Shown here piece after piece: positions 1,676 through 32,630 of a stretch of 32,630 nt of DNA. A program made the position numbers and the translations under genes. The stretch spans positions 1-32,630 of IMG/VR virus record IMGVR_UViG_3300021197_001630. The stretch is one strand, 5' to 3'. The stretch's first letter is position 1. Each line of letters starts with the position of its first letter. The DNA is from a virus. Under the pieces are notes generated by a model. That model was not told the origin of the DNA, made no database searches, and saw nothing but the letters and a program-made list of their open reading frames with translations.

Positions 1676-4600
1676 ATGTCTATAACCTTACGTAATACCA
1701 AAGGCACCCCTCTGTCTCATGCTGAGATGGATGCTAACTTCTCAGTTTTAACCGGTTCTATCGATGCAGGAGATGGACTATCTGGAGGCGGTCCGAAAAG
1801 CGGTTCAATAGAGTTTGCTGTAAATACAACAGTAGCTCGTACAGGTTCCAATACCTTTACTGGACCTCAAAATATACAATCCAGTCTTACAGCTTCTAGT
1901 GCTGCTATTACTACTATATCTGGCTCTTCTGTCACTTATACATCTGGTTCAATAGACAGAATTGATAGCACATCAAGCGGTATTACTACTATAACCGGTA
2001 CTAATCTTACCTATACATCTGGTTCAATAGACAGAATTGATACTACTGCTGCAGGCATTACTACATTAACTGGAACTAATCTAACTTTTACTTCTAGTTC
2101 ACTTTCTCGTTTAGACGTATCCGGAAACGGAGAAGTACAGGGAAATTTAAACGTAGGCGGTACAGTTACTGCTCAAGAGTTCCATACGGAATTTGTATCT
2201 GGTTCAATCATATTTGTGTCCGGTTCAACTAAGTTTGGAGATACATCTAACGATATACATTCTTTTTCAGGATCTTTACAAGTTTCCGGTTCAGGTAATC
2301 ACTTTTTTACTGACGGTAACGTGGGGATTGGTACTTCTAGTCCTGGACAGAAGTTAGAAGTTAATGGCAGTATATTTGCCAATGGCGGGAATATAACAGG
2401 TTCTAATTTTAGAATAGGAGAGTATATCGTTCATAGCGGTGATACTGACACGTTTATTAGATTTCAAACTGACGATATAAGCTTAACTGCCGGTGGAAGT
2501 AATTTATTTAGAGTAGATAATACTGCACCTGTAAGAGAGATTATAGTTAATGAGGCCGGAGCTGCAACAAACTTTAGAGTTGAATCTGATACTGTAACGG
2601 CTGCTTTATTTGTTACCGGCTCTACCGGTAACGTAGGTATTGGTACTACTACTACTGACTCTCTTTTACATCTTTCCGGCTCTTCCAATAATGCTATTGT
2701 CACTCTAGAAAATAATGGTAACGGTAACGTATCCGGTATAGATTTTGTTAGAGAAAGAAGTTCCGGTACTGGAGTTAATGGTGGTTCAATTTTTGTTGAA
2801 TCTAATACTGGACATACCCATTCCTCTATGTATCTGCAGACTCAAACTGCAGGAGCTGAAGCAGGAGTTACTTCTGCGTTAACAGACGATAACGGTGTTA
2901 GAGTTATTTTAGGAGGAGGAAATGGAATAGGGTCCTTTATCGTAGAAAATGGATCAAGCGAAAGTTTAAGAATTAATAAAGACGGTAACGTAGGTATTGG
3001 TACTACTAGTCCAACATCTTACGGTTCAGCTGTAAGAACTTTAGAAATACGAGGGAATACAGGTACAGGTAGCGGATTAGTTAGAGTCTCAAATGCAGAT
3101 AATTCTGTAGGTACCTCGTTATATTCTAGTACTAGTGCAGGTACCTTAAATGTTCAAACTAACCATCCTCTTACTTTCGCTACTAACAACAGCGAACGTA
3201 TGCGCATCGATACAAGTGGTAATATAGGTATTGGTACTAGTAGTCCAAGTCAACTCTTATATGTTTCTGGTTCTGACCAAGGGTTAGTTACTTTGGATTC
3301 CTCTAATGCTGATGGTGCTTATGCAACTTTTAAAACTGCAGGAACTATAAAAGGATATTTAGGTGGAGCCCAAGCTATTGCTAATGCTGGCCAAGATAAT
3401 TTGGCAGTTAGAGCTCAAAATGACTTAGTGTTTGCCACAGGAGGCGGTTCAGAACGTATGCGCATCGACTCAAGCGGTAACGTAGGTATTGGTACTACTA
3501 CTCCTTCTTCCTTATTTGATGTACATGGTAGTAGCAAACTCGGTAATACTAATTCTCATAGGTTAGATATATTAGGACAAACCATAGCTTTATCCGGTTC
3601 TAATACTACTATAGAGCACAAAGCAGCATCAGGTAATTTAAGAATACAAACTACTGGAGGATCTAATAATAAACTTATTCTTTCGTCTTCCGGAGATATA
3701 GAAGTAGAACAATCAGTTACAGTTAAGAATTTAGACACCTCTATACAGTCATCAGGATACCAATCAGGATTTGCCGGTCAAGGCTTTGATATTAATTTTT
3801 CAGGAAAATCTTCGGCTGAGTTTGATGACCTTACTGTAAGAGGCTCTATGAGAGTATTCGAATTAATAATTAATCAAGTTAGAGCTACTAATGGTTCATT
3901 ATTTGTTAGCTCAACCGGTAAAGTTGACTCTGTTGAAGACTTAGGAAGTGGTAACTTTGCTCTTACTTTTGATACCGGTTCAGGTACTGTAGGACATGGA
4001 TTTACTGAAAATGACGTCATTAGAGCCCAGCAAGTTAATAGAAATGCTATTGCCAATGCCGGTCAAACTCAAAGCCTTGATGATAACCTAGTATTTAGGT
4101 CTGACCTAACGGTAACATCAGTTCAAGATTTAAAAATAGTTACTGCATCTTTATCTTCTAGCTCTACTCCACCTTCAGCAAGTTTTGATTTTGTAAGATT
4201 AGGGAATACTTCTAATACTAATCGTCAAGGGAATATTTATCTAACCTCAGACGATAATAAAGCCCCTTTTATAGATATAGTAGACGGAATTACTTCTCAT
4301 TCAGATTTTAATAATTCTGCTACGGAGGGCGGTACTAAAGTTCGTATCGGTAAAATAGACGGAATAAATTCTCCGATTTTTGGGGATTTAACCGGATTCG
4401 GTATGTGGGCGTCTGGATCTGTTTACTTAGAAGGAGGTATAAATGCTACCTCGGGCCTTGTAGCAGGTTGGGCGATAAATACTGGCGTAATTCAAAGTAA
4501 TAATATCTTTATACAGTCTTCTGGTTCAGCCGGTGGAGAACTTATTAAAATAGGGCAGACCGCTGGTATGTCAGGTAATGGTATATTCTTATCAGGATCT

Positions 4601-7600
4601 GGAGATTTCAATTTACAAAGCGATGGTAGTAATTTTATAAGAAAGAGTGGAACAGATATTCAAGTAAGATCTGAAAACTTTATACTTAATACTTCTAAAT
4701 TAAAAATAGATTCTACTGCTGGGGGTAGCGGTAGTATAGCCATGGGAGCTACTCCACCTACTAGCTTTAATTCAGGTACAGGATTTTTCGTAGACGGTTC
4801 TGGTAAGTTTCTATTAGGCAATTCAGGTGGTAGTAAGATAACTTTTGATGGTAGTAATGTTAATGTAGTAGGTTCAATAACTATTAGTAATCCTGGAGAT
4901 ATAGACATCTCTACCGTAAACAACGATTCAGGATTTACTGATGATACTGCTGCTACTGCAGCTAGTGCTTCTGCGGCTACAGTAAGTAGTTCTGAAGCTG
5001 CTATTAGAACCCAAGTTAGACTTACCTCAAATGGTATGGAACTTGCTGATCAAAGTAGTAATATATTAGCTAGTTACGGTACTACTACGACAATAGGTAG
5101 AGATGCTAATAATCAGTCAAGAATTTTTATAGATAGTGATTCAGTTGACTTAATAGTAGATAGTGGAGGAACAGATACCACTCAAGCCTCTTTCGGTGCC
5201 ACTACAGTAGTAGGTGCTACAGGCAGCGAACATATAAGAATATCAGGGTCAGGTTTAGAGATTAAAGATGGCTCAACTACTAGAATTTCAATGAACGGTT
5301 CTGGTATGCAAATAGGTTCAGTAGCTAACGGTATCACTTTAGATGCTAGCGGTAATGCAACTTTTAACGGTGAAATTACGATAAGTTCAGGTTTAGCTAA
5401 TTCTATTAGTGGATCTATTACCGGACAAACGGGTTCTCTTGATACAGCTATAAATAGCGCTCAGGGAACAGCAAATACTGCCACCGGCTCTGCTGCTACT
5501 GCTCAAGCAGCCGCCCTAGCTGCTCAAGGTACGGCAAATGCCGCCACCGGGTCTGCTGCAACGGCACAGTCTGCGATAGATACTATGGAGACTCAAGTAG
5601 TTCTTTCTAGTGCAGGGATGGACTTAAGAAATAATAGTAACGTAAATGTTGCTACTTTTGGAACTACTACCAAGTTTTTCGACGGAGTAGGTCATGCAGC
5701 CGCCAATAGAAAGTTACAACTAAATGCTAGCGGTATTACTGCTTTTGGAGACGATACTACTACTTATGCTGAAGTTACTTCTACAGGTTTAGGAATAGTC
5801 GAAAGCGATGTTAATGTAGCATCTTTTGGCTCTTCAGTAAGGGTAGGTAAAAACGCAGCTGATAAAACAGCTTTAAGGATAGATAGTTCAGGTAACCTAT
5901 CTATAGGTACCTCAGGTACTACTAATTTTTCAGCTGACAGTTCTGGAAACGTTACTATGGCAGGTACAGTTACTGCGACAGCTGGTGCTATAGGCGGCTT
6001 TGGTATTTCAGCTACTACTATATCCTCATCTAATGCTGATTTAATATTAAGAAACAACGGACAGATAACCGGCTCTAATGTTTTATTTGACGATGGAACC
6101 ATAGGTGGGTTCTCTATTACTGGAACTGCTATTTCGTCTTCGAATAATAATTTAATATTAAGGAATAACGGACAGATTACTGGTTCCAATGTTTTATTTG
6201 ACGATGGAACTATTGGAGGTTTTTCTCTTACTGCTACATCTATTTCATCCTCTAATAATAGTCTTATATTAAAAAGCAATGGTCAAATAACTGCTTCTAG
6301 TGCTGATCTTAGTGGAAAAATTACAGCTGAATCTGGAGAAGTAGGTGGTTTTGCTATTACTGCAACCGCTGTTTCGTCATCTAATAATAGCTTAATACTT
6401 AGAAGTAATGGTCAAATAACAGCATCTAGTGCAGATCTTACTGGTAAAATTACGGCAACAAGTGGGGAAGTCGGTGGTTTTGCCATTACCGGTACTGCTA
6501 TTTCATCTTCGAATAATAGTCTTATTTTAAAAAGCAATGGTCAAATAACTGCTTCAAGTGCTGATCTTTCTGGTAAAATTACTGCTACAAGTGGTGAAGT
6601 TGGTGGTTTTGCCATTACAGGAACTGCTGTTTCTTCATCTAATGACCAATTAATACTTAGAAGTAGCGGACAAATAACAGCATCTAACGTAGATCTTTCT
6701 GGTAAAATTACTGCTACAAGTGGTGAAGTTGGTGGCTTTTCAATTACAGGAACTGCTATTTCATCATCTAATAATAATCTTATCTTAAAAAGTAATGGTG
6801 AAATCACTGGTACTAGCGGTACTATTGGAGGATGGACGTTAGGATCCGATAGTTTTACAAACGGTAACGTTAAATTATCTAATGCAGCTGATAATAAAGG
6901 CCTTATAATTACTGCTGCATCAGGACCTAACATACTCCAGGTAGGTGAATTCGATGACGTTACTCCTACTTCTACTGTGTTAAGCTTTCCAGCAACTGTG
7001 GACGAATCAGCTGCTTCTTCAAGTCTATTTGTTAGTAGTTTTCCAAGAACAATTGGCTTTGATGGAACCGGTAACGCAGAAAAAGGAGCAAGATTATTAT
7101 ATGAAATAGATACTGCAATAAATTCAAAAGATACTATTAACATAGTACAGCCAGTATCTTTTGGGTACTTAATGGAAGATGGAAGTATAGCTGGTGTAAC
7201 TAAATTTGCTCACGTTACTGCATCGTTAATTAAAGGTACTGAAGTAGTAGCTCAAACAGCAGTACAAAGAAGTAGTATTTACCCTTCTTCCGCAGTACTC
7301 AACATACAACATTACTATACCGGAAGTAACGTAGGTTCTGGAACTTTTAAACTACAGATAGACTATAGATCGCACTATAATAGAAATTCAGATCCTGCTA
7401 ACTTTAATGAAGTAACGTTAACCGGATACCAAGGTACAAAAGATACAGCTTTAGTTAATATAACAAATAACCAAGCTTTATTCTACCAGGGACCTAATAG
7501 AAAATTTGAATGGACTCCTGGAGGACTCACCTTTAATGTGGGTGAGGTAGATATAGCTAATATTAATACTGAAGGTATTAAGTTAAAAGAATCAGGTTCC

Positions 7601-8986
7601 ATAAGTCTTGATGCCGGTAATATAGGTATCTTTAACGGCGGTATAGATGTAGGTGGAGATAATAGTCACGTATTCATTTCAGAAAATGATTTTGTAGATC
7701 CAGAAGGATATAAGTTCTTTGTAAACTCTGATAATTCAGAGATGATTCTACTAAATAAAGCTCAAGTTGGTACTATCTCAATGATAGTAGATGGAGCTGG
7801 AGGTCAACCTGAATTCGCTATTCGTCGAACTACTTCTAATACTGAAGTATTTAGAATAGACGAAAACGGTAAAGTAGGAATAGGAGGGGTAGATCCTAGT
7901 GAAAAATTACACGTAGATGGTAACGGTCTTCTTACAGGCAAATTAGGGTTAGGTGGAGTTACTCCTACTTCTACTTTAACTGTTAGTAGTGCTACCGGTG
8001 GAGCAGAAAGTTGGGTAGGAGGTATATTAGTAGAAAATACATCTACAACTACAGGAGAACCAGCTATAGCTTTTAGAAATGCAGGTTCCAGTGGAACTGG
8101 GGATAATAGATGGGTGTTAGGTTTAAATCAATCTGCTAATTTTGATATAGCATATGGTGATTCAACAGGTACAGTTTTTACTAATGCTAATACTGCTATT
8201 AGGATAGGCACTAATAAAAACGTAGGTATAGGCGGGGTATTTACAGGTGCTCGATTAGATATAGTACAGTCAGCAGATTCAGCCGGCGGTGGAATAAGAT
8301 TAAGAGAATCAGACGATACTAATGACTATTGGGATATATTTTTAGGTACAGACGATAAACTATTTTTCCATTATACTGGCGGGGGTAACGGAGGTTTTAT
8401 AGATGACGGCGTTACTTCAAATCAAATGAATTTTACTGGACAGCACCGTTCTAATATTTCTTCAACCTACGATAACATAACAGCAATTTCGAGCAGTGAA
8501 AGAATTGGTTTAATAGTCTCTGCTGACGGTACCTATTCCAATATTGACGGAGGTACTGATCCAACTATTAATGACTCTTTACCTAATATTACTCTCTCAA
8601 CTACAGCTAAAGATAAGAAAGTATTCGGAGTAATATCAGATGAAGAAGATCTAACTGATGGTATAAGAACCTACAGTCAAGGCAACTTTGTATCAACTTA
8701 CGAGGTTTCAGGATCTGAATCTGGTAGAACGTTTGTAAACTCTATAGGGGAAGGGGGTATATGGGTATCAAATTACTCTGGATCTCTTGAGAATGGAGAT
8801 TATATTACTACTTCTCCGTTATCCGGTATAGGTATGAAACAAGCTGACGATTTACTACATAACTATACTGTTGCAAAAATAACTCAAGATTGTACTTTTA
8901 ATGATGCAGGTAAATATACAGAAGTTGAATTCTCCGGGAGTACATACCGTAAGCAGTTTGTTGGCTGTACCTATCATTGCGGATAA
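1676..8986 (+). CDS. Giant repeat-rich tail fibre protein (2436 aa)
   Basis: The start MSITLRNTKGTPLSHAEMD is the standard opening of tail-fibre proteins in marine myoviruses (virion attachment end). The body is low in cysteine and rich in Gly, Ser, Thr and Asn. It carries many beta-type repeats: GNVGIGTSSP-like motifs (about residues 214, 319, 437, 515, 601 and degenerate ones after 2060), an alanine-rich ATGSAATAQ stretch likely to be helical, and seven tandem GGF...SSSN...LILxxNGQIT units (residues ~1440-1717). The last ~150 residues (GVISDEEDL, ENGDYITTSPLSG, LLHNYTVAK, ending CTYHCG) look like a fibre carboxy-terminal domain; resemblance to Peptidase_G2-type self-cleaving or chaperone domains is tentative. 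Likely role: host recognition or long side fibre. At 7.3 kb it fills over a fifth of the window. Confidence 0.85.
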   Translation: MSITLRNTKGTPLSHAEMDANFSVLTGSIDAGDGLSGGGPKSGSIEFAVNTTVARTGSNTFTGPQNIQSSLTASSAAITTISGSSVTYTSGSIDRIDSTSSGITTITGTNLTYTSGSIDRIDTTAAGITTLTGTNLTFTSSSLSRLDVSGNGEVQGNLNVGGTVTAQEFHTEFVSGSIIFVSGSTKFGDTSNDIHSFSGSLQVSGSGNHFFTDGNVGIGTSSPGQKLEVNGSIFANGGNITGSNFRIGEYIVHSGDTDTFIRFQTDDISLTAGGSNLFRVDNTAPVREIIVNEAGAATNFRVESDTVTAALFVTGSTGNVGIGTTTTDSLLHLSGSSNNAIVTLENNGNGNVSGIDFVRERSSGTGVNGGSIFVESNTGHTHSSMYLQTQTAGAEAGVTSALTDDNGVRVILGGGNGIGSFIVENGSSESLRINKDGNVGIGTTSPTSYGSAVRTLEIRGNTGTGSGLVRVSNADNSVGTSLYSSTSAGTLNVQTNHPLTFATNNSERMRIDTSGNIGIGTSSPSQLLYVSGSDQGLVTLDSSNADGAYATFKTAGTIKGYLGGAQAIANAGQDNLAVRAQNDLVFATGGGSERMRIDSSGNVGIGTTTPSSLFDVHGSSKLGNTNSHRLDILGQTIALSGSNTTIEHKAASGNLRIQTTGGSNNKLILSSSGDIEVEQSVTVKNLDTSIQSSGYQSGFAGQGFDINFSGKSSAEFDDLTVRGSMRVFELIINQVRATNGSLFVSSTGKVDSVEDLGSGNFALTFDTGSGTVGHGFTENDVIRAQQVNRNAIANAGQTQSLDDNLVFRSDLTVTSVQDLKIVTASLSSSSTPPSASFDFVRLGNTSNTNRQGNIYLTSDDNKAPFIDIVDGITSHSDFNNSATEGGTKVRIGKIDGINSPIFGDLTGFGMWASGSVYLEGGINATSGLVAGWAINTGVIQSNNIFIQSSGSAGGELIKIGQTAGMSGNGIFLSGSGDFNLQSDGSNFIRKSGTDIQVRSENFILNTSKLKIDSTAGGSGSIAMGATPPTSFNSGTGFFVDGSGKFLLGNSGGSKITFDGSNVNVVGSITISNPGDIDISTVNNDSGFTDDTAATAASASAATVSSSEAAIRTQVRLTSNGMELADQSSNILASYGTTTTIGRDANNQSRIFIDSDSVDLIVDSGGTDTTQASFGATTVVGATGSEHIRISGSGLEIKDGSTTRISMNGSGMQIGSVANGITLDASGNATFNGEITISSGLANSISGSITGQTGSLDTAINSAQGTANTATGSAATAQAAALAAQGTANAATGSAATAQSAIDTMETQVVLSSAGMDLRNNSNVNVATFGTTTKFFDGVGHAAANRKLQLNASGITAFGDDTTTYAEVTSTGLGIVESDVNVASFGSSVRVGKNAADKTALRIDSSGNLSIGTSGTTNFSADSSGNVTMAGTVTATAGAIGGFGISATTISSSNADLILRNNGQITGSNVLFDDGTIGGFSITGTAISSSNNNLILRNNGQITGSNVLFDDGTIGGFSLTATSISSSNNSLILKSNGQITASSADLSGKITAESGEVGGFAITATAVSSSNNSLILRSNGQITASSADLTGKITATSGEVGGFAITGTAISSSNNSLILKSNGQITASSADLSGKITATSGEVGGFAITGTAVSSSNDQLILRSSGQITASNVDLSGKITATSGEVGGFSITGTAISSSNNNLILKSNGEITGTSGTIGGWTLGSDSFTNGNVKLSNAADNKGLIITAASGPNILQVGEFDDVTPTSTVLSFPATVDESAASSSLFVSSFPRTIGFDGTGNAEKGARLLYEIDTAINSKDTINIVQPVSFGYLMEDGSIAGVTKFAHVTASLIKGTEVVAQTAVQRSSIYPSSAVLNIQHYYTGSNVGSGTFKLQIDYRSHYNRNSDPANFNEVTLTGYQGTKDTALVNITNNQALFYQGPNRKFEWTPGGLTFNVGEVDIANINTEGIKLKESGSISLDAGNIGIFNGGIDVGGDNSHVFISENDFVDPEGYKFFVNSDNSEMILLNKAQVGTISMIVDGAGGQPEFAIRRTTSNTEVFRIDENGKVGIGGVDPSEKLHVDGNGLLTGKLGLGGVTPTSTLTVSSATGGAESWVGGILVENTSTTTGEPAIAFRNAGSSGTGDNRWVLGLNQSANFDIAYGDSTGTVFTNANTAIRIGTNKNVGIGGVFTGARLDIVQSADSAGGGIRLRESDDTNDYWDIFLGTDDKLFFHYTGGGNGGFIDDGVTSNQMNFTGQHRSNISSTYDNITAISSSERIGLIVSADGTYSNIDGGTDPTINDSLPNITLSTTAKDKKVFGVISDEEDLTDGIRTYSQGNFVSTYEVSGSESGRTFVNSIGEGGIWVSNYSGSLENGDYITTSPLSGIGMKQADDLLHNYTVAKITQDCTFNDAGKYTEVEFSGSTYRKQFVGCTYHCG
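3230..3505 (+). repeat. Duplicated 276 bp fibre block, copy 2
   Basis: Partner of 253-528. Differences include four substitutions clustered where one copy reads gccgcggctata and the other gcccaagctatt. It encodes about residues 519-610 of the giant fibre. Confidence 0.9.
5993..6826 (+). repeat. Seven tandem fibre repeats (111-129 bp units)
   Basis: Seven in-frame units: two of 37 codons, four of 43 and a last one of 32. Each starts GGF or GGFxIT and contains SSSN and LILxxNGQIT. Units 5 and 6 share more than 40 consecutive bases at a 129-base offset (from 6563 and from 6692), so part of the array duplicated recently. Probably a beta-helical shaft whose length can change by unequal recombination. 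Confidence 0.9.
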
Positions 8987-26726: not shown

Positions 26727-28670
26727 ATGAAGTCGTTTCTTAGTATATTCTCTTTAATATTATTATGCTCGTTTAATGTTTTAGCACAAACATCAGGCAA
26801 TGGAGGAAGTACACCGTGGGTAGTACTTACTAACCAATACCAAACATCTCCGTTTAACGATACTACTAAAGTACCGGTTTATTATGATGGAACTAACTAC
26901 AGTGGTAAAGTAACTTCGTTACAATTTAAAATTGATTACGATGGAGTTACTTTCGATAGTTTATTTTCTATTACAAGCAAACTATCAGGAGACTATACCT
27001 TATCTTATAATGAAAATAAAACTAATGATGAGGTACTAATTAGTATAGTATATACAGGAAGTTCAACGACTACAACCTTTCCCGATACATCTATCATAGT
27101 ACTAAATTTTGACCACGTACCTGTCAAGTTACTTTACTCTAATGAACAGAATATAACAGCATTTACTTTTGCCGGATATACAGCAGCTGGTTCAAATGCT
27201 AATGGTACTGATATCTCTATAGGAACCCATTCTCACGGTGGAGCTGTTGATATACCGCATAGAAAATTTAGTGGGAATATACTAGAGTACGGTACTAGTA
27301 AAGGCCTTTCAGGGATGGAATACCAGTTATATAGAAACAACTCTTTAATTACTACTGTATTAGGTGGTAGCGCAACTACTACTAATAGTTCCGGATATTA
27401 CGAAATGGTATATTATGAACACTATTACGGTGCTATAAATAATAGTTCAACTGATTTTGATTTTTTATTTAAATCTGAACCTATAGATAGTGATGGAGGC
27501 ATTTCGACTGCTGATTCATATAAGCTATTACTAGCTGCAAATAATAAGTTACAGCTAAATGCATACCAAAGGCTGTCAGCAGACGTTAACCACTCTCATA
27601 CATTTTCGATTGCTGACTCCTACGTACTGTATAGCTACAATGCAGGAGCCTATTCTAACTGGACCGGTTTCGGAGCCGGAGGTTATAGAGACGTAATGTT
27701 TATAAAACCTGAAGACGTAAAGTATTTAAATGATGATAGTACAACGACTACTTCGGTTGGTGTTGGACCATTAGGTTTTTCGCCTCAAGAAACTAATTGG
27801 ACTTATGACCTAAATGCTTACAACGGTATAACTGATCTTACAGAGAATTTTTACGTAGTAGTAATGGGGGATGTAAATCTTACTTCATTAGGAGGCAATA
27901 GTATTTCACCTAAAATAGTTCCTTCCACTATCGGAAATACAAACAATATCAATACCTCTATCCTTGCCCAGTTACCAGATCAAAACGTTACTACTGGAGA
28001 TGAATTTTTAGTTGATTTAACTTTGTTCACAGACGGAGTAGATGTTCATTCATTCGACTTTGAATTAAAATATGATCCAGAGGTACTAGATTTTATAGAA
28101 GCATCAACACCCTACCTACCTAACGCTTGGCAACTTTACTTTAATACTGATAGCTTAGGTTTTATATCCTACGGTGGTTTAGATGCAAGTACTGGGGACT
28201 ATCCTATAAGAACTCAAGATGCAGAAACTATATTAGAATTTAAATTTAGAGCTAAACAAGTAACCGGAATCGGAGAAACACCTATAGAATTTGGAGATAA
28301 CTACAATACCGGAGATAGAAGAGGTGATGACTTAAAAACTATCGTTTATAATGGCAAAGTCTACTTACATGTTATAAGCCCAGTCTTAGACCCAATAGAC
28401 TATCCTGAAGGGTTTAAATTAGACCAAAACTACCCAAACCCATTTAACCCAGGAACTAAAATAGGATTTACAATAGTTAATCCTCAGATAGTTACTATTG
28501 ATGTTTACACATTAGACGGCAGGTATGTAGATACAATCTTTAATAAATTAGTAGGTACTGGTTACCATGAAACTTATTTCGATGCTACTAATTTGCCTTC
28601 CGGAATTTATTTTTATAAATTAAACACTACTACTGGTAGTATAACCAAAAAAATGACGTTAATAAAATAA
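26727..28670 (+). CDS. Secreted modular protein with T9SS sorting domain
   Basis: 647 residues. Signal peptide at 1-20 (KSFLSIFSLILLCSFNVLAQ). Residues ~45-180 are cohesin-like beta, ~181-230 a Cna-B/CarboxypepD-reg-like repeat (SGNILEYGT, NSSGYYEM). Dockerin-like calcium loops occur at ~253-270 (DSDGGISTADSYKLL) and ~286-303 (DVNHSHTFSIADSYVL), with a partial one at ~381. A second cohesin-like domain spans ~413-548 (FDFELKYDPEVLDFI). Residues 565-647 are a type A T9SS sorting domain: LDQNYPNPFNPGTKIGF, VYTLDGRYVD, FDATNLPSGIYFYKL, KKMTLIK. The product should cross the inner membrane by Sec and the outer membrane by the host T9SS, then be anchored or released at the surface. No catalytic domain seen; adhesion, masking or receptor modification are guesses. 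It lies in a phage operon with codon use like its neighbours, so it is phage-borne. Confidence 0.85.
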   Translation: MKSFLSIFSLILLCSFNVLAQTSGNGGSTPWVVLTNQYQTSPFNDTTKVPVYYDGTNYSGKVTSLQFKIDYDGVTFDSLFSITSKLSGDYTLSYNENKTNDEVLISIVYTGSSTTTTFPDTSIIVLNFDHVPVKLLYSNEQNITAFTFAGYTAAGSNANGTDISIGTHSHGGAVDIPHRKFSGNILEYGTSKGLSGMEYQLYRNNSLITTVLGGSATTTNSSGYYEMVYYEHYYGAINNSSTDFDFLFKSEPIDSDGGISTADSYKLLLAANNKLQLNAYQRLSADVNHSHTFSIADSYVLYSYNAGAYSNWTGFGAGGYRDVMFIKPEDVKYLNDDSTTTTSVGVGPLGFSPQETNWTYDLNAYNGITDLTENFYVVVMGDVNLTSLGGNSISPKIVPSTIGNTNNINTSILAQLPDQNVTTGDEFLVDLTLFTDGVDVHSFDFELKYDPEVLDFIEASTPYLPNAWQLYFNTDSLGFISYGGLDASTGDYPIRTQDAETILEFKFRAKQVTGIGETPIEFGDNYNTGDRRGDDLKTIVYNGKVYLHVISPVLDPIDYPEGFKLDQNYPNPFNPGTKIGFTIVNPQIVTIDVYTLDGRYVDTIFNKLVGTGYHETYFDATNLPSGIYFYKLNTTTGSITKKMTLIK

Positions 28671-28675
28671 AAGCT

Positions 28676-28987
28676 ATGAGCGAACAAGAACAACCACTAA
28701 ACTCAGGTTTCAAGGACCTACTTAATGCTACAATGAGCCGCCGTTGGGCTATAACTTTAACAGTACTTATTACCTTTATGCTACTAGCATTAGGTATACT
28801 TCTTTCTATTAGAACTGAGGCAACCGTTTCCGGGGAGTGGAAAGAGTTACTATTATTAATGCTTGGTGCCTTAATTGGTTCGTACGGTAAAATAATAGAT
28901 TATTGGTTCTCTGATACTGATAAAGATAAAATGCTTGTTCAAAAAATGGATGAAGAAGACGGAGTTTCACTTTCAGACACTATGTAA
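28676..28987 (+). CDS. Holin-like small membrane protein
   Basis: The 103-residue product has a charged amino end followed by two predicted membrane helices (about 24-45 and 56-75, WAITLTVLITFMLLALGILL and LLLLMLGALIGSYG), then GKIIDYWFSDTDKDKM and an acidic tail. Small two-helix proteins with a GxYGKxxDYWF-like junction are common in marine phages and usually called holins. Start five bases after the T9SS-type gene, three bases before the secreted nuclease. No endolysin gene is recognisable beside it. Holin is the best reading, but a generic membrane protein cannot be excluded. Confidence 0.6.
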   Translation: MSEQEQPLNSGFKDLLNATMSRRWAITLTVLITFMLLALGILLSIRTEATVSGEWKELLLLMLGALIGSYGKIIDYWFSDTDKDKMLVQKMDEEDGVSLSDTM

Positions 28988-28990
28988 ATT

Positions 28991-29575
28991 ATGAAAAAAT
29001 TAATTATAATTTTTATATTAATGCTTCCTTCGACCATTTTTGGTCAGGAAGTTAAGATTGTTGAAACTGATTTATTTACAATTGGATATTCCGAACAACT
29101 ACAACAACCAGTTTGGGCTGAATATGTTGTAAAATGTCCTAACGGTACGGCTAGTAGATCTGGAATGGACTTCTATGAAGATAAAGAAATCTTTACTTCG
29201 GACGATGACGACTATAAAGGTAACGTATGGGATAAAGGGCATATGGCTCCTGCAGCAGCTTTTTCTTGCACCAGAGAGATGCTTAGAGAAACTTTTACTT
29301 TTCTTAATTCTGCCTTACAGCACCAAAGTCTTAATAGAGGAGTCTGGAACAGATTAGAAGCTTTTGAAAGAGACTTAGCTAACTTCTATGAGGTAAGCGT
29401 ATACATAGCTGTAATCTTTGACGAAGATTCCGAAGTTTTAACTACTGGTGCAACCGTACCCTCTGGTTTTAGAAAAACTATATATTTTGATGATAATACA
29501 GTTGTGTTTGAATTTCCAAACGAACAAATATCCGGCAAACGTTGGATTGACTTCAAATTAGATAACTTTAACTAA
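28991..29575 (+). CDS. Secreted DNA/RNA non-specific endonuclease (NUC family)
   Basis: 194 residues. A signal peptide ends near residue 19 (KKLIIIFILMLPSTIFGQ), so the mature enzyme is extracytoplasmic. The beta-beta-alpha-metal site is complete: WDKGHMAPAA (81-88, His84 as base; the usual DRGH is DKGH) and FLNSALQHQSLNRGVWNRLE with N106, N115 (metal ligand) and E123. Spacing matches Serratia nuclease (H89, N119, E127). Expected to cut single- and double-stranded DNA and RNA with Mg2+. Shorter than Serratia nuclease (245 mature), close to small NUC members. It lies in the exported-protein block. Possible uses: degrading released or incoming DNA outside the inner membrane, or nucleotide scavenging; the sequence does not decide. 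Confidence 0.9.
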   Translation: MKKLIIIFILMLPSTIFGQEVKIVETDLFTIGYSEQLQQPVWAEYVVKCPNGTASRSGMDFYEDKEIFTSDDDDYKGNVWDKGHMAPAAAFSCTREMLRETFTFLNSALQHQSLNRGVWNRLEAFERDLANFYEVSVYIAVIFDEDSEVLTTGATVPSGFRKTIYFDDNTVVFEFPNEQISGKRWIDFKLDNFN

Positions 29576-29582
29576 TAAAAAA

Positions 29583-29909
29583 ATGAGCGAAGAAAAACAG
29601 GAAGGTTTCCTTTCACAAATTAAAACTCAAATTGTAGCCGGGGTTGGTATTGTACTAGCCGGACTAGGTACTGCTTTTGTAGACGAAATCAAATCCTTTG
29701 TAGGAATCGAAGACGAAGCAGCAATAGAAGCACCAGCTGTTAATGCTGAACAGAACGTTAACGTAGAAGGTCCAACTATTAACCTTACTATACCTCAAGC
29801 AGCTCCTATTCAAACTATAATAAAAGAAGTTAAAGCCGAGCCTGAGACTGTAAAAGTTGAAGAGCCTACTGCCACAGATAGATTACTAAGATACAAAAAG
29901 AAAAACTAA
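29583..29909 (+). CDS. Small membrane-anchored protein, unknown
   Basis: 108 residues: one likely membrane helix near 14-33 (IKTQIVAGVGIVLAGLGTAF), then an acidic, Val/Pro-rich region (VNVEGPTINLTIPQAAPIQ, EVKAEPETVKVEEP) and a basic end (RLLRYKKKN). The layout, an anchor plus an extended periplasmic or cytoplasmic arm, would fit a spanin-like or scaffold role, but no family is recognised. A leader of seven A residues precedes the ATG; its stop overlaps the next ATG by one base (TAATG). Confidence 0.55.
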   Translation: MSEEKQEGFLSQIKTQIVAGVGIVLAGLGTAFVDEIKSFVGIEDEAAIEAPAVNAEQNVNVEGPTINLTIPQAAPIQTIIKEVKAEPETVKVEEPTATDRLLRYKKKN

Positions 29910-30154
29910 TGAAATTACCAAATATACCTTACTACATCGAACACGGCCTGATTGCTTTAGGGATTACTGTTCTAGCCTTTTTAATTCCTAACTTTGCAAT
30001 AGTATCTGCAGGGTTCTTTTTCTACCTTGGTAGAGAAATTAGAGACTTAGAAAAACTACATGACTGGGATATGGAAGGTTTTGATTGGCCTGGAATGTTG
30101 TGGCCAGTTTATGTTACTGTAGCTCTTTGGATTCTAACTTTTATATTTCTATAA
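29909..30154 (+). CDS. Small integral membrane protein, unknown
   Basis: 81 residues with two or three hydrophobic segments: about 12-41 (HGLIALGITVLAFLIPNFAIVSAGFFFYL, possibly a hairpin) and 62-80 (WPVYVTVALWILTFIFL). Between them a charged GREIRDLEKLHDW loop. Translation is coupled by one-base overlap with the gene before, and the stop lies one base from the CsgG-like gene. Similar small proteins with FYxGREIRD-type loops are seen in marine phage genomes; function unknown. A holin or antiholin role is possible given context. Confidence 0.55.
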   Translation: MKLPNIPYYIEHGLIALGITVLAFLIPNFAIVSAGFFFYLGREIRDLEKLHDWDMEGFDWPGMLWPVYVTVALWILTFIFL

Positions 30155-30155
30155 C

Positions 30156-30848
30156 ATGAATAAATTTATACTTTTCTTTACAGGCGTTTTTCTTTTAGTT
30201 ACTGGCTGTTCTTCTTCTGTATTAGTTGAAGATTTTCAAGCAGGATATGAAGAGCAAAAATCAATCTACGACATAGAGTATAATACCGGAGAAAGAACTC
30301 CTATTCAATTAGCTAATCTTTCAGTTACTAAAGAGATAATAGAGCAGTACCCAGAACTTGGAGACAAAAGAGTAGGTTTAGGATTAACTAACCGTATTCT
30401 TGAAAACTTTGAAGAGACTGGTTTCTTTAGATATACAGAAGAGAAAGAAGATATACTAAACCAAATGATAGATAAATGGGAACTATCAGATGCCGGTTTA
30501 GCTACTGATGGTACTGAAATTAATACAGGTACTTTAGTACTTCCTAAGTACTTTGTGTATGCCGAACTTTACGAATTCTCTGTATCAACAGAAGAAGTAG
30601 TAGACAAGTTTAATACTATAACCCGTAATACTACAAGAGTTGGCTTCCAAATTAGACTTGTAAGCGTAGAAAACGGAGAATACATTATAGCATCAGGCTT
30701 AGGAGAATCAACTCAAACCGGCTTAGGATTTTTATCTAGTCCAGAAATGAACTTTAATCAATCCACCGTAGGTATAAGTACTCAAAAGTCTCTTGAAACT
30801 GCTACTGTTACTCTTATACGCCGTGCTCAAAGGAGAGGCTGGCTGTAA
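30156..30848 (+). CDS. CsgG-like outer-membrane lipoprotein
   Basis: 230 residues. Lipoprotein signal with lipobox VTGC (Cys18). The body matches the CsgG/curli-secretion-channel plan: LANLSVTKEIIEQYPELGDKRVG, GLTNRILENFEETGFFRYTEE near 90-110, YVYAEL-like strand (YFVYAELYEFSV, ~149), FQIRLVSVENGEYIIASGLGES (~180-200) and a terminal helix with A..T.IRRAQ. CsgG forms a nonameric pore for curli export; this is shorter than E. coli CsgG (277). CsgG homologues have, to my knowledge, been seen in other marine phages without a known role. It is followed by a putative outer-membrane barrel gene, suggesting an outer-membrane complex. No CsgA/B curli subunit is present. Confidence 0.8.
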   Translation: MNKFILFFTGVFLLVTGCSSSVLVEDFQAGYEEQKSIYDIEYNTGERTPIQLANLSVTKEIIEQYPELGDKRVGLGLTNRILENFEETGFFRYTEEKEDILNQMIDKWELSDAGLATDGTEINTGTLVLPKYFVYAELYEFSVSTEEVVDKFNTITRNTTRVGFQIRLVSVENGEYIIASGLGESTQTGLGFLSSPEMNFNQSTVGISTQKSLETATVTLIRRAQRRGWL

Positions 30849-30853
30849 GAGGA

Positions 30854-31774
30854 ATGAAACGCCTCTTATTTATACTTACCTTATTACCGAGTTTCTGTTT
30901 TTCACAGACTACCCTTAAGTTTAACTATACTGAGGTTTGTAGTGAAGAGCAGAGACAGATGGTCGTAAATATAGATCCTAACTCCAATAGCTACTCTTTT
31001 TTCGGAGAAAATAAATCTTTTACATCTCAAGAAATAGCAGATGGTACACCATATGAATGGTTAAATACAGTTTATAAAAGATGGTCGGAGTATTACCCGT
31101 GTGCTGAGATTAGAAGTTTAGTCGCAGCTTCTACTAAAAGCTCTTCAGAAAGTTCTAAAGTAGATATAAATGCTCCGATAGTCGTAGTGCAATCAGATTT
31201 AGGGTACTTAAACTCTTTCTTTACAACTTCAGCCGGCTTCTCTAATACTAATTTACTAACAAACGAATCTGAGGGGTATACTTTTAACGGTTCTACCTCA
31301 AGAGTCTTTGGTATTGGTTACTATAGAGTTACTCCTTTTGCAAATAATATTAAAGGAATAACTAATACTAATGTTATTCTTTTTGAAAACGACTTTTTGG
31401 GGAGTTTATCAACAGGGTTAACTGTAAATAAAGGAGATTTATTTGCTTTTATTTTTAATGCATATATTTTTGGTAATTTAAACGGCTACGGATTCCAAGA
31501 CAGCTCTGTACTTTTAGGACTTAGTTATCCATTTTTTAAAACAAGAAATATAGATCTAACCGGTCTCCTTTTAACTTCATATACCTACAGAGTTAAAGTA
31601 TTTAAACTAGATTACTGGTTCGAGGATTACGTTTCTTTCTCACCATATATCAATTTGACATACCGCCTTACGCAGACGTTTGGACTTAACCTCTCCTACA
31701 CTAGTACTTTAAGAACAGATATTTATAAGAAAGATCAGTACGGTATATTACTTGGAGGTAGAGTATTTTTCTAA
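30854..31774 (+). CDS. Putative outer-membrane beta-barrel protein
   Basis: 306 residues. Signal peptide ~1-18 (KRLLFILTLLPSFCFSQ). An amino domain (20-90) has two cysteines that could pair, C29 in NYTEVCSEEQ and C83 in YYPCAEIRS. A Ser-rich linker leads to alternating hydrophobic/polar strands (GIGYYRVTPF, FLGSLSTGLTVNKGD, SVLLGLSYPFF, YINLTYRLTQTFGLNLSYTSTL) ending in GRVFF, with the terminal Phe typical of barrel proteins. A good AGAGGA ribosome-binding site lies in the two-gene junction. I recall the NYTExC amino domain next to CsgG-like genes in other marine phages, but cannot verify it. Likely partner of the CsgG-like protein; function unknown. Confidence 0.65.
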   Translation: MKRLLFILTLLPSFCFSQTTLKFNYTEVCSEEQRQMVVNIDPNSNSYSFFGENKSFTSQEIADGTPYEWLNTVYKRWSEYYPCAEIRSLVAASTKSSSESSKVDINAPIVVVQSDLGYLNSFFTTSAGFSNTNLLTNESEGYTFNGSTSRVFGIGYYRVTPFANNIKGITNTNVILFENDFLGSLSTGLTVNKGDLFAFIFNAYIFGNLNGYGFQDSSVLLGLSYPFFKTRNIDLTGLLLTSYTYRVKVFKLDYWFEDYVSFSPYINLTYRLTQTFGLNLSYTSTLRTDIYKKDQYGILLGGRVFF

Positions 31775-32244
31775 TGAAGCTTTTATTTTTTTTACAGGTA
31801 TTTACTGTTTGGGTAGCACCGGCAGAAAATAGTACTCATATACAGAACTTAAGTAATACTTTAGTTCAAAGAACTACTGCTTTAGTCGTAGAAGAGTATT
31901 TACAAGACATTGACGATTTTAGATTAGTTCAAGATAGATTTGAAGCTGATATTATAGTAACTCCGTCTTTTATAGGATATAGAAGACCTAATACTGATAT
32001 AAGCTTTTCAGTACTTCAAGTACAAGAAGAAGAAGTTTTTCTGACTATGAGGATAGAATTTTATTCTGTTAACTATTCTTTTTCTCAATCTTTAATTAGT
32101 CAGGCGTCTTTAGTTAGAAAGGCAGGTTCTAACTTTCTGGATATAGAAGACTCTCAAAACGATTTTGCTGAAAGTTCTGTCTTTAATTTAATAAAGAAAA
32201 CGATTAATACTTGTTTCCAAGACTTCGATTCGTTAATCTTTTAG
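31774..32244 (+). CDS. Exported protein of unknown function
   Basis: 156 residues. Short signal peptide ~1-17 (KLLFFLQVFTVWVAPA). The mature part has an early helix (LSNTLVQRTTALVVEEYLQD), FEADIIVTPSFIGYRRP, alternating strands and a late helix (FAESSVFNLIKKTINTCF). The helix-strand order, FEADIIVTPSF and helical end recall the periplasmic part of CsgG/LpoB-type proteins, but with no lipobox Cys; weak resemblance. Start overlaps the stop of the barrel gene by one base, so it belongs to the same unit. The 3' end overlaps the convergent minus-strand gene by 12 bases. Confidence 0.55.
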   Translation: MKLLFFLQVFTVWVAPAENSTHIQNLSNTLVQRTTALVVEEYLQDIDDFRLVQDRFEADIIVTPSFIGYRRPNTDISFSVLQVQEEEVFLTMRIEFYSVNYSFSQSLISQASLVRKAGSNFLDIEDSQNDFAESSVFNLIKKTINTCFQDFDSLIF

Positions 32245-32630
32245 TATCTCGGTCAAATCAATTAAGTTATAAGTTATTCCTATTCCAACAAAAGGAGTTA
32301 GTCCCTGAGAAGTAAATCCATACCCACCATGTAATCCTAAGCTTACTCTACTTGGAACTTTTCTCAAAAAATCCTTACCAGTTAATTTATTACCTCCTAT
32401 ATAAGTAATCTTTACAAAATCAGTTAACGGTAATACGTCTATTTCATAACCAGCAGATAAAGGTTTTAATTTAGTTGTTACATTAAGATTTACTCTAAAG
32501 TTTTTTATATTAAAAGTTTCTTCGTATGGCTCATTATTAACGTAATCCCACTTAAAAGAACTTATTGCTTGCAGCTCAAAAGCACCACCATTAAATTTTA
32601 CTACTTCATTTATTAGCAAATCGTAACTAT
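32233..32630 (-). CDS. Partial protein with barrel-like C-terminus (5' end outside)
   Basis: The frame is open to the window edge (upstream of a TTG at 32619 it continues SYDL), so the gene starts beyond 32630. The visible ~130 residues are beta-rich with FRVNLNVTTKLKPL, PSRVSLGLHGGYGFTSQGLTPFVGIGITYNLI. The last motif, GxxxGYGxTxxGLxPFVGIGIxYNL, is typical of small phage or prophage proteins in Bacteroidota that carry an amino-terminal membrane anchor, often near lysis genes; I know similar ones as DUF6808. It is the only minus-strand gene, converging on the + strand block. Spanin-like or envelope role is a guess. Confidence 0.6.
   Translation of the reverse strand, partial: SYDLLINEVVKFNGGAFELQAISSFKWDYVNNEPYEETFNIKNFRVNLNVTTKLKPLSAGYEIDVLPLTDFVKITYIGGNKLTGKDFLRKVPSRVSLGLHGGYGFTSQGLTPFVGIGITYNLIDLTEILKD

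Follow-up and report, generated by a model that had tools for sequence, protein, structure and literature searches.

Why does a phage carry a gene for a protein addressed to the type IX secretion system (T9SS) of its host, and what would such a protein do to the infected cell? The question is posed by a complete plus-strand reading frame at 26727..28670 of the window, the 32,630-base stretch analysed here, which is an entire virus record. The record is a myovirus fragment that encodes a tail sheath, a T4-like tube and baseplate proteins, and its replication genes specify gp32-like and UvsX-like proteins, a 5'–3' exonuclease and a DnaB-type helicase. The tail gene block also holds a 2,436-residue protein (window 1676–8986) for which no convincing Pfam match was found.

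ORF calling and Pfam and TIGRFAM matches identify the product of 26727..28670 as a 647-residue T9SS cargo, or scaffold, of a 33-member family (A3). Its upstream neighbour is the DnaB-type helicase gene, a profile match that bears out the helicase placed beside it in the initial annotation of this DNA. The gene on the other side (28676..28987, plus strand; family F5, present at 43 module loci) had been described as holin-like. Its 103-residue product does look like a protein with two transmembrane segments, and its likeness to a holin is one of topology only. The cargo matched none of the PHROG families, and no enzyme domain was found in its 647 residues, as first annotated.

Domain architecture of the cargo

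The reading frame and the curated profile matches agree with the original description of a 647-residue product that has a Sec signal and a T9SS type A tail. The signal peptide comprises residues 1–20 (26727..26786), with cleavage predicted before an invariant Gln21 from hydropathy and the 33-orthologue alignment. On inspection of hydropathy, used in place of a dedicated predictor, a Sec signal is plain in 33/33 orthologues, and the mature part opens with the invariant Gln throughout the alignment. The C-terminal sorting domain (residues 565–647, beginning LDQNYPNPFNP; 28419..28667), whose boundaries had been proposed from the letters, exceeds the curated cut-offs of both profiles searched: PF18962 (34.8 bits, cut-off 27, residues 569–643) and TIGR04183 (46.1 bits, cut-off 23). 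The cargo profile also matches a solved T9SS cargo tail, 8glj_D (E 1e-3). Positions invariant across the 33 aligned sequences include, in the tail, PNP, G598, G612, G626 and Y628, and the second dockerin-type loop is also among them. Judged by sequence, the cargo carries both T9SS export signals, Sec and type A tail, which makes surface display through the host T9SS the natural reading, and a well-supported one.

Four modules lie between these signals, all on the plus strand. An N-terminal beta-sandwich module (residues 30–176; 26814..27254) was delimited with an AlphaFold2 (AF2) model and an HMM, N1, that matches gp014 of the cultured Flavobacterium phage Immuto, so that the module is present in phage relatives. 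We considered this module as a second cohesin and rejected the assignment (hhalign of N1 against cohesin, 9.4%, not significant). Residues 177–250 (27255..27476) form a transthyretin/CarboxypepD_reg-like module by family profile and AF2 model; the suggested check for Cna-B gave a weak result, and transthyretin/carboxypeptidase-regulatory-like is the description that stands.

Residues 250–310 (27474..27656) form a dockerin-like loop-helix pair with the motifs DSDGGISTADSYK and DVNHSHTFSIADSYV. Dockerin_1 matches 11/33 orthologues (best E 8e-5), the window protein alone giving no significant match, and the family profile matches the solved dockerin 4uyp_B (E 0.004, residues 252–303) with both loops visible. 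The dockerin-like module of the initial annotation is thus a putative dockerin, weak by Pfam. The cohesin-like module was upheld without such qualification: the domain at residues 410–549 (27954..28373) matches PF00963 at 44.1 bits (cut-off 24.1, residues 416–545) and resembles solved cohesins in sequence and in fold, its AF2 model having a target-normalised TM of ~0.85 to cohesins in the PDB. Across the 33 aligned orthologues, Por_Secre_tail was matched in 33, Cohesin in 29 and Dockerin_1 in the 11 above.

An AF2 model built from four sequences was too poor to use (pLDDT 40); that built from 33 sequences (pLDDT 73) comprises a beta-sandwich, a transthyretin-like domain, a helical dockerin region, a cohesin and a tail. 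The best viral match of this predicted structure is a full-length one (E 2e-49) to UniProt A0A6J5M064 from an uncultured Caudovirales phage, an entry whose annotation goes no further than the name of a domain, 'Secretion system C-terminal sorting domain'. Two further viral matches, of 363 and 243 residues, we take by their lengths to be Immuto gp014 and gp015.

Tail type and candidate hosts

The tails of the window clade have 41–42 of ~88 residues in common with randomly drawn Bacteroidota tails and ~24/75 with the tails of other phage cargos that are homologous in their bodies. A wider cellular set gave up to 47/89; because it had been drawn with the query motif, the random set was added as an unbiased second sample. 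The simplest reading of these sequence comparisons is that the tail has been matched to, or acquired from, the host's own cargo, and its motif type points to Balneola-, Ignavibacteria- or Marinimicrobia-like candidate hosts. Hits in a genome scan with the window protein fall mostly on the tail (residues ~545–647), so that the scan says nothing firm about the cargo body.

The tail motif NYPNPFNP is encoded in 39 viral-contig stretches (L096–L134), some of them in large contigs; additional T9SS cargos of phages may lie among these, as may host DNA. Another T9SS-tailed protein of a phage, unlike the cargo and of ~1,140–1,240 residues, with GCMDPDSFNYNPDATVDDGSC-type repeats, is encoded at L397:4476-7901 and L398:3714-7445. 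It is followed by an outer-membrane-type protein of ~355 residues in contigs that are helicase relatives, and constitutes an independent T9SS cargo.

A genuine phage gene

A search of related viral contigs, which had been proposed from the outset, recovered the gene with both of its flanks. The helicase–cargo junction on the left recurs in contig L006 and the junction with gene 28676 on the right recurs in contigs L002 and L003. The cargo orthologues of L002–L005 are 49–69% identical, and the comparison of L215 with L002 (dN 0.06, dS 0.76) indicates purifying selection.

The window helicase and its Immuto (NC_055915) counterpart share 70% identity, and in Immuto the scaffold is split between two genes. 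Immuto gp014 comprises the N-terminal, transthyretin-like and dockerin modules and gp015 the cohesin and T9SS tail (46.5 bits), each with a Sec signal of its own. The dockerin body and the cohesin-tail anchor are therefore two chains that must meet again. In tblastn searches with the L250 cargo, gp014 and gp015 together cover 94% of the query at 32% identity; with the window protein the Immuto match is weak and partial, and the tail alone, too short a query, matched nothing in cultured phages.

The initial annotation had named failure of the sorting-domain profile and an assembly chimera as the findings that would undo it, and neither was encountered. T9SS cargos are normally bacterial, tails being found in 48/61 Bacteroidota genomes and usually by the tens in each, but fusion of bacterial DNA to a phage contig can be dismissed almost outright, given junctions that recur in other contigs, a cultured, complete phage that has the module, and phage records that usually hold a single T9SS tail. 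We conclude that the cargo gene genuinely belongs to the phage and is conserved at this locus.

The cargo heads a conserved module with a CsgG-like gene

The genes that follow 28676 in the window are all on the plus strand. The first (28991..29575) encodes a secreted DNA/RNA non-specific endonuclease (PF01223, E 9e-28), a mobile neighbour outside the core that is present at 19 loci. It is followed by a ~108-residue protein with a transmembrane segment and a Pro/Ala-rich part (F1; 29583..29909), which belongs to the module core (73/81 loci), by an 81-residue membrane protein without a detected family (29909..30154), and by a CsgG-like protein (F0; 30156..30848), which has a lipobox in the window phage. 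Next are a secreted, probably outer-membrane beta-barrel protein (F2, 73 loci; 30854..31774), the Immuto homologue of which has no Pfam match, and an F4-like secreted paralogue of the CsgG-like domain (~156 residues; 31774..32244; F4 HMM, E 1e-5). A minus-strand reading frame at the contig end (window 32233–32619), possibly beta-barrel-like, faces the module.

Conservation was surveyed with gene 30156, the CsgG-like gene, as the query and anchor, taking the best 80 loci of 216 relatives in viral contigs. Gene order is nearly constant: a ~640-residue cargo, the ~108-residue membrane protein, the CsgG-like protein, a secreted barrel-like protein of 306–625 residues and a CsgG-like paralogue of ~157 residues. 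Among records with the CsgG-like gene, 37/50 have a T9SS tail above the cut-off, and 46/50 at E <= 0.001, mostly as one tail-bearing gene per record lying directly upstream of the CsgG-like gene; helicase-matched control records have an above-cut-off tail in 8/50 (Fisher p 7e-9, the records being related and including some duplicates). Cargo counts likewise include near-identical contigs, 56 being distinct among 77. Gene content and order thus place the cargo first in a conserved envelope module of several genes, which is not seen when the gene is read alone.

In 395 Bacteroidota genomes a single, weak match to the CsgG-like family was found, and this near absence marks the module as phage-borne. 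It is accessory, since many helicase relatives are without it. Frequent neighbours are the holin-like F5 gene (43 loci) and an endolysin gene, F6 (36 loci). The position of the PF01223 endonuclease near the module varies, the gene being present also in L002, L003, L009 and Immuto (gp012), and a phage nuclease targeted to the periplasm or beyond is odd in itself.

The likeness of gene 30156 to CsgG is moderate, as judged from profiles. Its family aligns with bacterial CsgG at 84.6% by hhalign once signal peptides are removed, which was done because the 95.7% obtained with them is inflated partly by the signal peptide. PF03783 matches 1/27 family members (E 0.0012), and the family profile had no CsgG hit in the PDB. 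For the second CsgG-like gene, hhalign of A4 against F4 gave 95.7% with signal peptides removed, and F4 showed no direct match to bacterial CsgG.

Exchangeable, mostly lectin domains on a second protein of dockerin type

The transthyretin-dockerin module of the cargo recurs in a second secreted protein encoded downstream at 53 loci (51/67 of those with enough sequence). Its N-terminal part is mostly a lectin, the domains matched being Lectin_C, Lectin_C with Laminin_G_3, GEVED, or Ig_7 with Lectin_C. EPN and W[ND]D motifs, which are known from sugar-binding C-type lectins, are present in 27/35 distinct proteins. Immuto gp013 (L086:10527-11525) is likewise a secreted C-type lectin, with the cargo's transthyretin-dockerin module as its C-terminal half; in this phage its gene lies upstream of the scaffold genes.

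The binding parts change while the rest of the module does not. L225 and L241 are 93% identical in their scaffolds, 98% in the CsgG-like protein and 80% in the dockerin parts, yet 26% in the binding parts. L222 and L233 have scaffolds that are 84% identical, one bearing GEVED where the other bears a lectin. That sugar-binding domains are exchanged while the scaffold stays nearly constant suggests that selection has recently acted on what is bound. The module is conserved in many aquatic phages, where display of sugar-binding proteins appears to be its role. In the window clade (three records, ~160 kb) no lectin and no second dockerin protein was found, and the lectin-display reading is therefore borrowed from relatives and does not yet extend to the window phage.

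A sister group with the tail-like domain on its own lipoprotein

At 13 loci the body stops after the cohesin (hhalign to the cargo family, 98.8%) and the tail-like domain is encoded apart, as a lipoprotein. This lipoprotein aligns with the cargo tail (hhalign 92.8%, E 4e-7) and matches Por_Secre_tail below its cut-off (E 6e-4), which shows that T9SS is not required for the fold to exist. Acidic residues that closely follow the Cys in 13/13 distinct lipoproteins resemble the Bacteroidetes lipoprotein export signal, which is SDDFE in F. johnsoniae and C-X-K-(D/E)2 in Capnocytophaga (PMC5080379). Taken together, these sequences suggest that surface placement is the conserved property, achieved through either a T9SS tail or a lipoprotein. 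A module variant in L259 (6791–8701 and 8701–9412) has two tail-like lipoproteins in tandem, and a C-type lectin match (a 640-residue open frame, G089:7627-7938) lies within its tail-less body.

Proposed function

The cargo is probably a phage-made cohesin-dockerin scaffold that is displayed through T9SS and coats the infected cell. As in known T9SS biology, Sec would carry it into the periplasm and the host T9SS would take it over the outer membrane, the tail being cleaved off and the body remaining on surface polysaccharide. Assembly through cohesin-dockerin contacts is suggested by the domain content and by the Immuto split. Such contacts could link scaffold copies to one another or, in most relatives though not in the window clade, recruit the separate secreted lectin-dockerin proteins. 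The CsgG-like and outer-membrane-type proteins may form an envelope complex that aids display.

From this arrangement we infer glycan masking or superinfection exclusion as the role of the module, the best fit to lectins that are swapped on a constant scaffold. Specifically, and with somewhat less than even confidence, we propose that the lectin coat binds the envelope glycans of the infected cell itself and masks receptors, leading to superinfection exclusion, to progeny being kept off the lysed envelope, or to both.

Exchangeable lectin domains on a conserved scaffold would also suit adhesion, the main rival, whereby lectin-bearing infected cells stick to siblings, algae or particles and new hosts are near at the burst ('sibling capture'). 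The same idea has been put forward for pelagiphage curli genes (PMC7029224), but a phage with CsgGF genes gave no clumping (PMC9004378) and the window clade lacks a lectin partner, and we consider adhesion unlikely.

In another reading the module serves lysis or egress: late in infection its CsgG-like and outer-membrane-type proteins would breach or weaken the outer membrane, with the cargo as a structural part. A lysis role has been proposed for phage CsgGF (PMC9004378), and the holin-like F5 and endolysin F6 genes are frequent neighbours. This reading is improbable here, as lectin partners and a T9SS tail fit it poorly, the constant core is without lysis genes, and the CsgG of HTVC008M does not match the CsgG-like family of the module.

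The sister group, with its homologous domain on a separate lipoprotein, raises the alternative that the C-terminal domain is an Ig-like fold retained for structure and unused by T9SS. We give this little credence, given scores above the curated T9SS cut-offs, matches in 33/33 relatives, invariant key positions and window-clade tails that follow the cellular tail type. Virions often bear Ig-like and lectin domains, and the cargo could be a decoration of capsid or tail, but with a Sec signal in every orthologue, no PHROG match, and a gene that lies in a replication/lysis neighbourhood outside the structural block, a virion protein is very improbable.

Relation to known systems

The initial annotation knew of no characterised phage T9SS cargo, but earlier reports exist: crAss-like contigs with T9SS domains were noted in 2019 (PMC6949934), and a Cryophage T9SS cargo was described in 2020 (PMC7468147). 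The Cryophage genes resemble the present one in their type A tails, and hijacking of the host with competition or superinfection was proposed for them. They differ in that they lie in variable islands and encode an endoglucanase, a GH39 protein and a PA14 protein, whereas the scaffold described here is non-enzymatic, with cohesin and dockerin, and lies in a conserved module.

Immuto gp013–gp019 is the cultured member of the module: a lectin-dockerin protein, a body, a cohesin with T9SS tail, a small transmembrane protein, then the CsgG-like protein, an outer-membrane-type protein and the CsgG-like paralogue. It differs from the window in its two-gene scaffold, and the annotation of its products stops at hypothetical, cohesin and lectin proteins, none being given a function.

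CsgG genes have been described in pelagiphages and in an OM43 phage, in curli operons (CsgF, CsgG) that resemble the module in having CsgG-type envelope genes near a replication module, but have curlin-like neighbours and no reported T9SS cargo (PMC7029224, PMC9004378). By hhalign, no HTVC008M gene significantly matched a module family, and by this comparison the module does not belong with the pelagiphage curli operons. Cellulosome scaffolds share the cohesin, in sequence and fold, and dockerin-type partners with sugar-binding domains; the module differs in being viral, T9SS-tailed and without enzymes, and in its weak dockerin match. The T5 Llp and Cor lipoproteins (PMC9586334), phage-made envelope blocks on later adsorption, are alike in purpose only: each is a small periplasmic lipoprotein that acts on one receptor, and we claim no homology.

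Implications for phages of Bacteroidota

Little is understood of phage interference at the cell surface of Bacteroidota. In the literature searched, which was not exhaustive, we found no report of a phage cohesin-dockerin or T9SS scaffold module, and we know of no earlier viral use of the cohesin-dockerin architecture. A broader proposal, which we put forward tentatively, is that large phages of Bacteroidota and related phyla use a cellulosome-like display, with a T9SS-exported or lipoprotein-tethered scaffold and plug-in lectins, to re-coat the host against competitors. Because Immuto grows on Flavobacterium sp. LMO8, T9SS-based rebuilding of the surface during infection is directly testable. 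If confirmed, the module would represent a superinfection exclusion or adhesion system of a new class and, to our knowledge, the earliest example of a cohesin-dockerin architecture in a virus.
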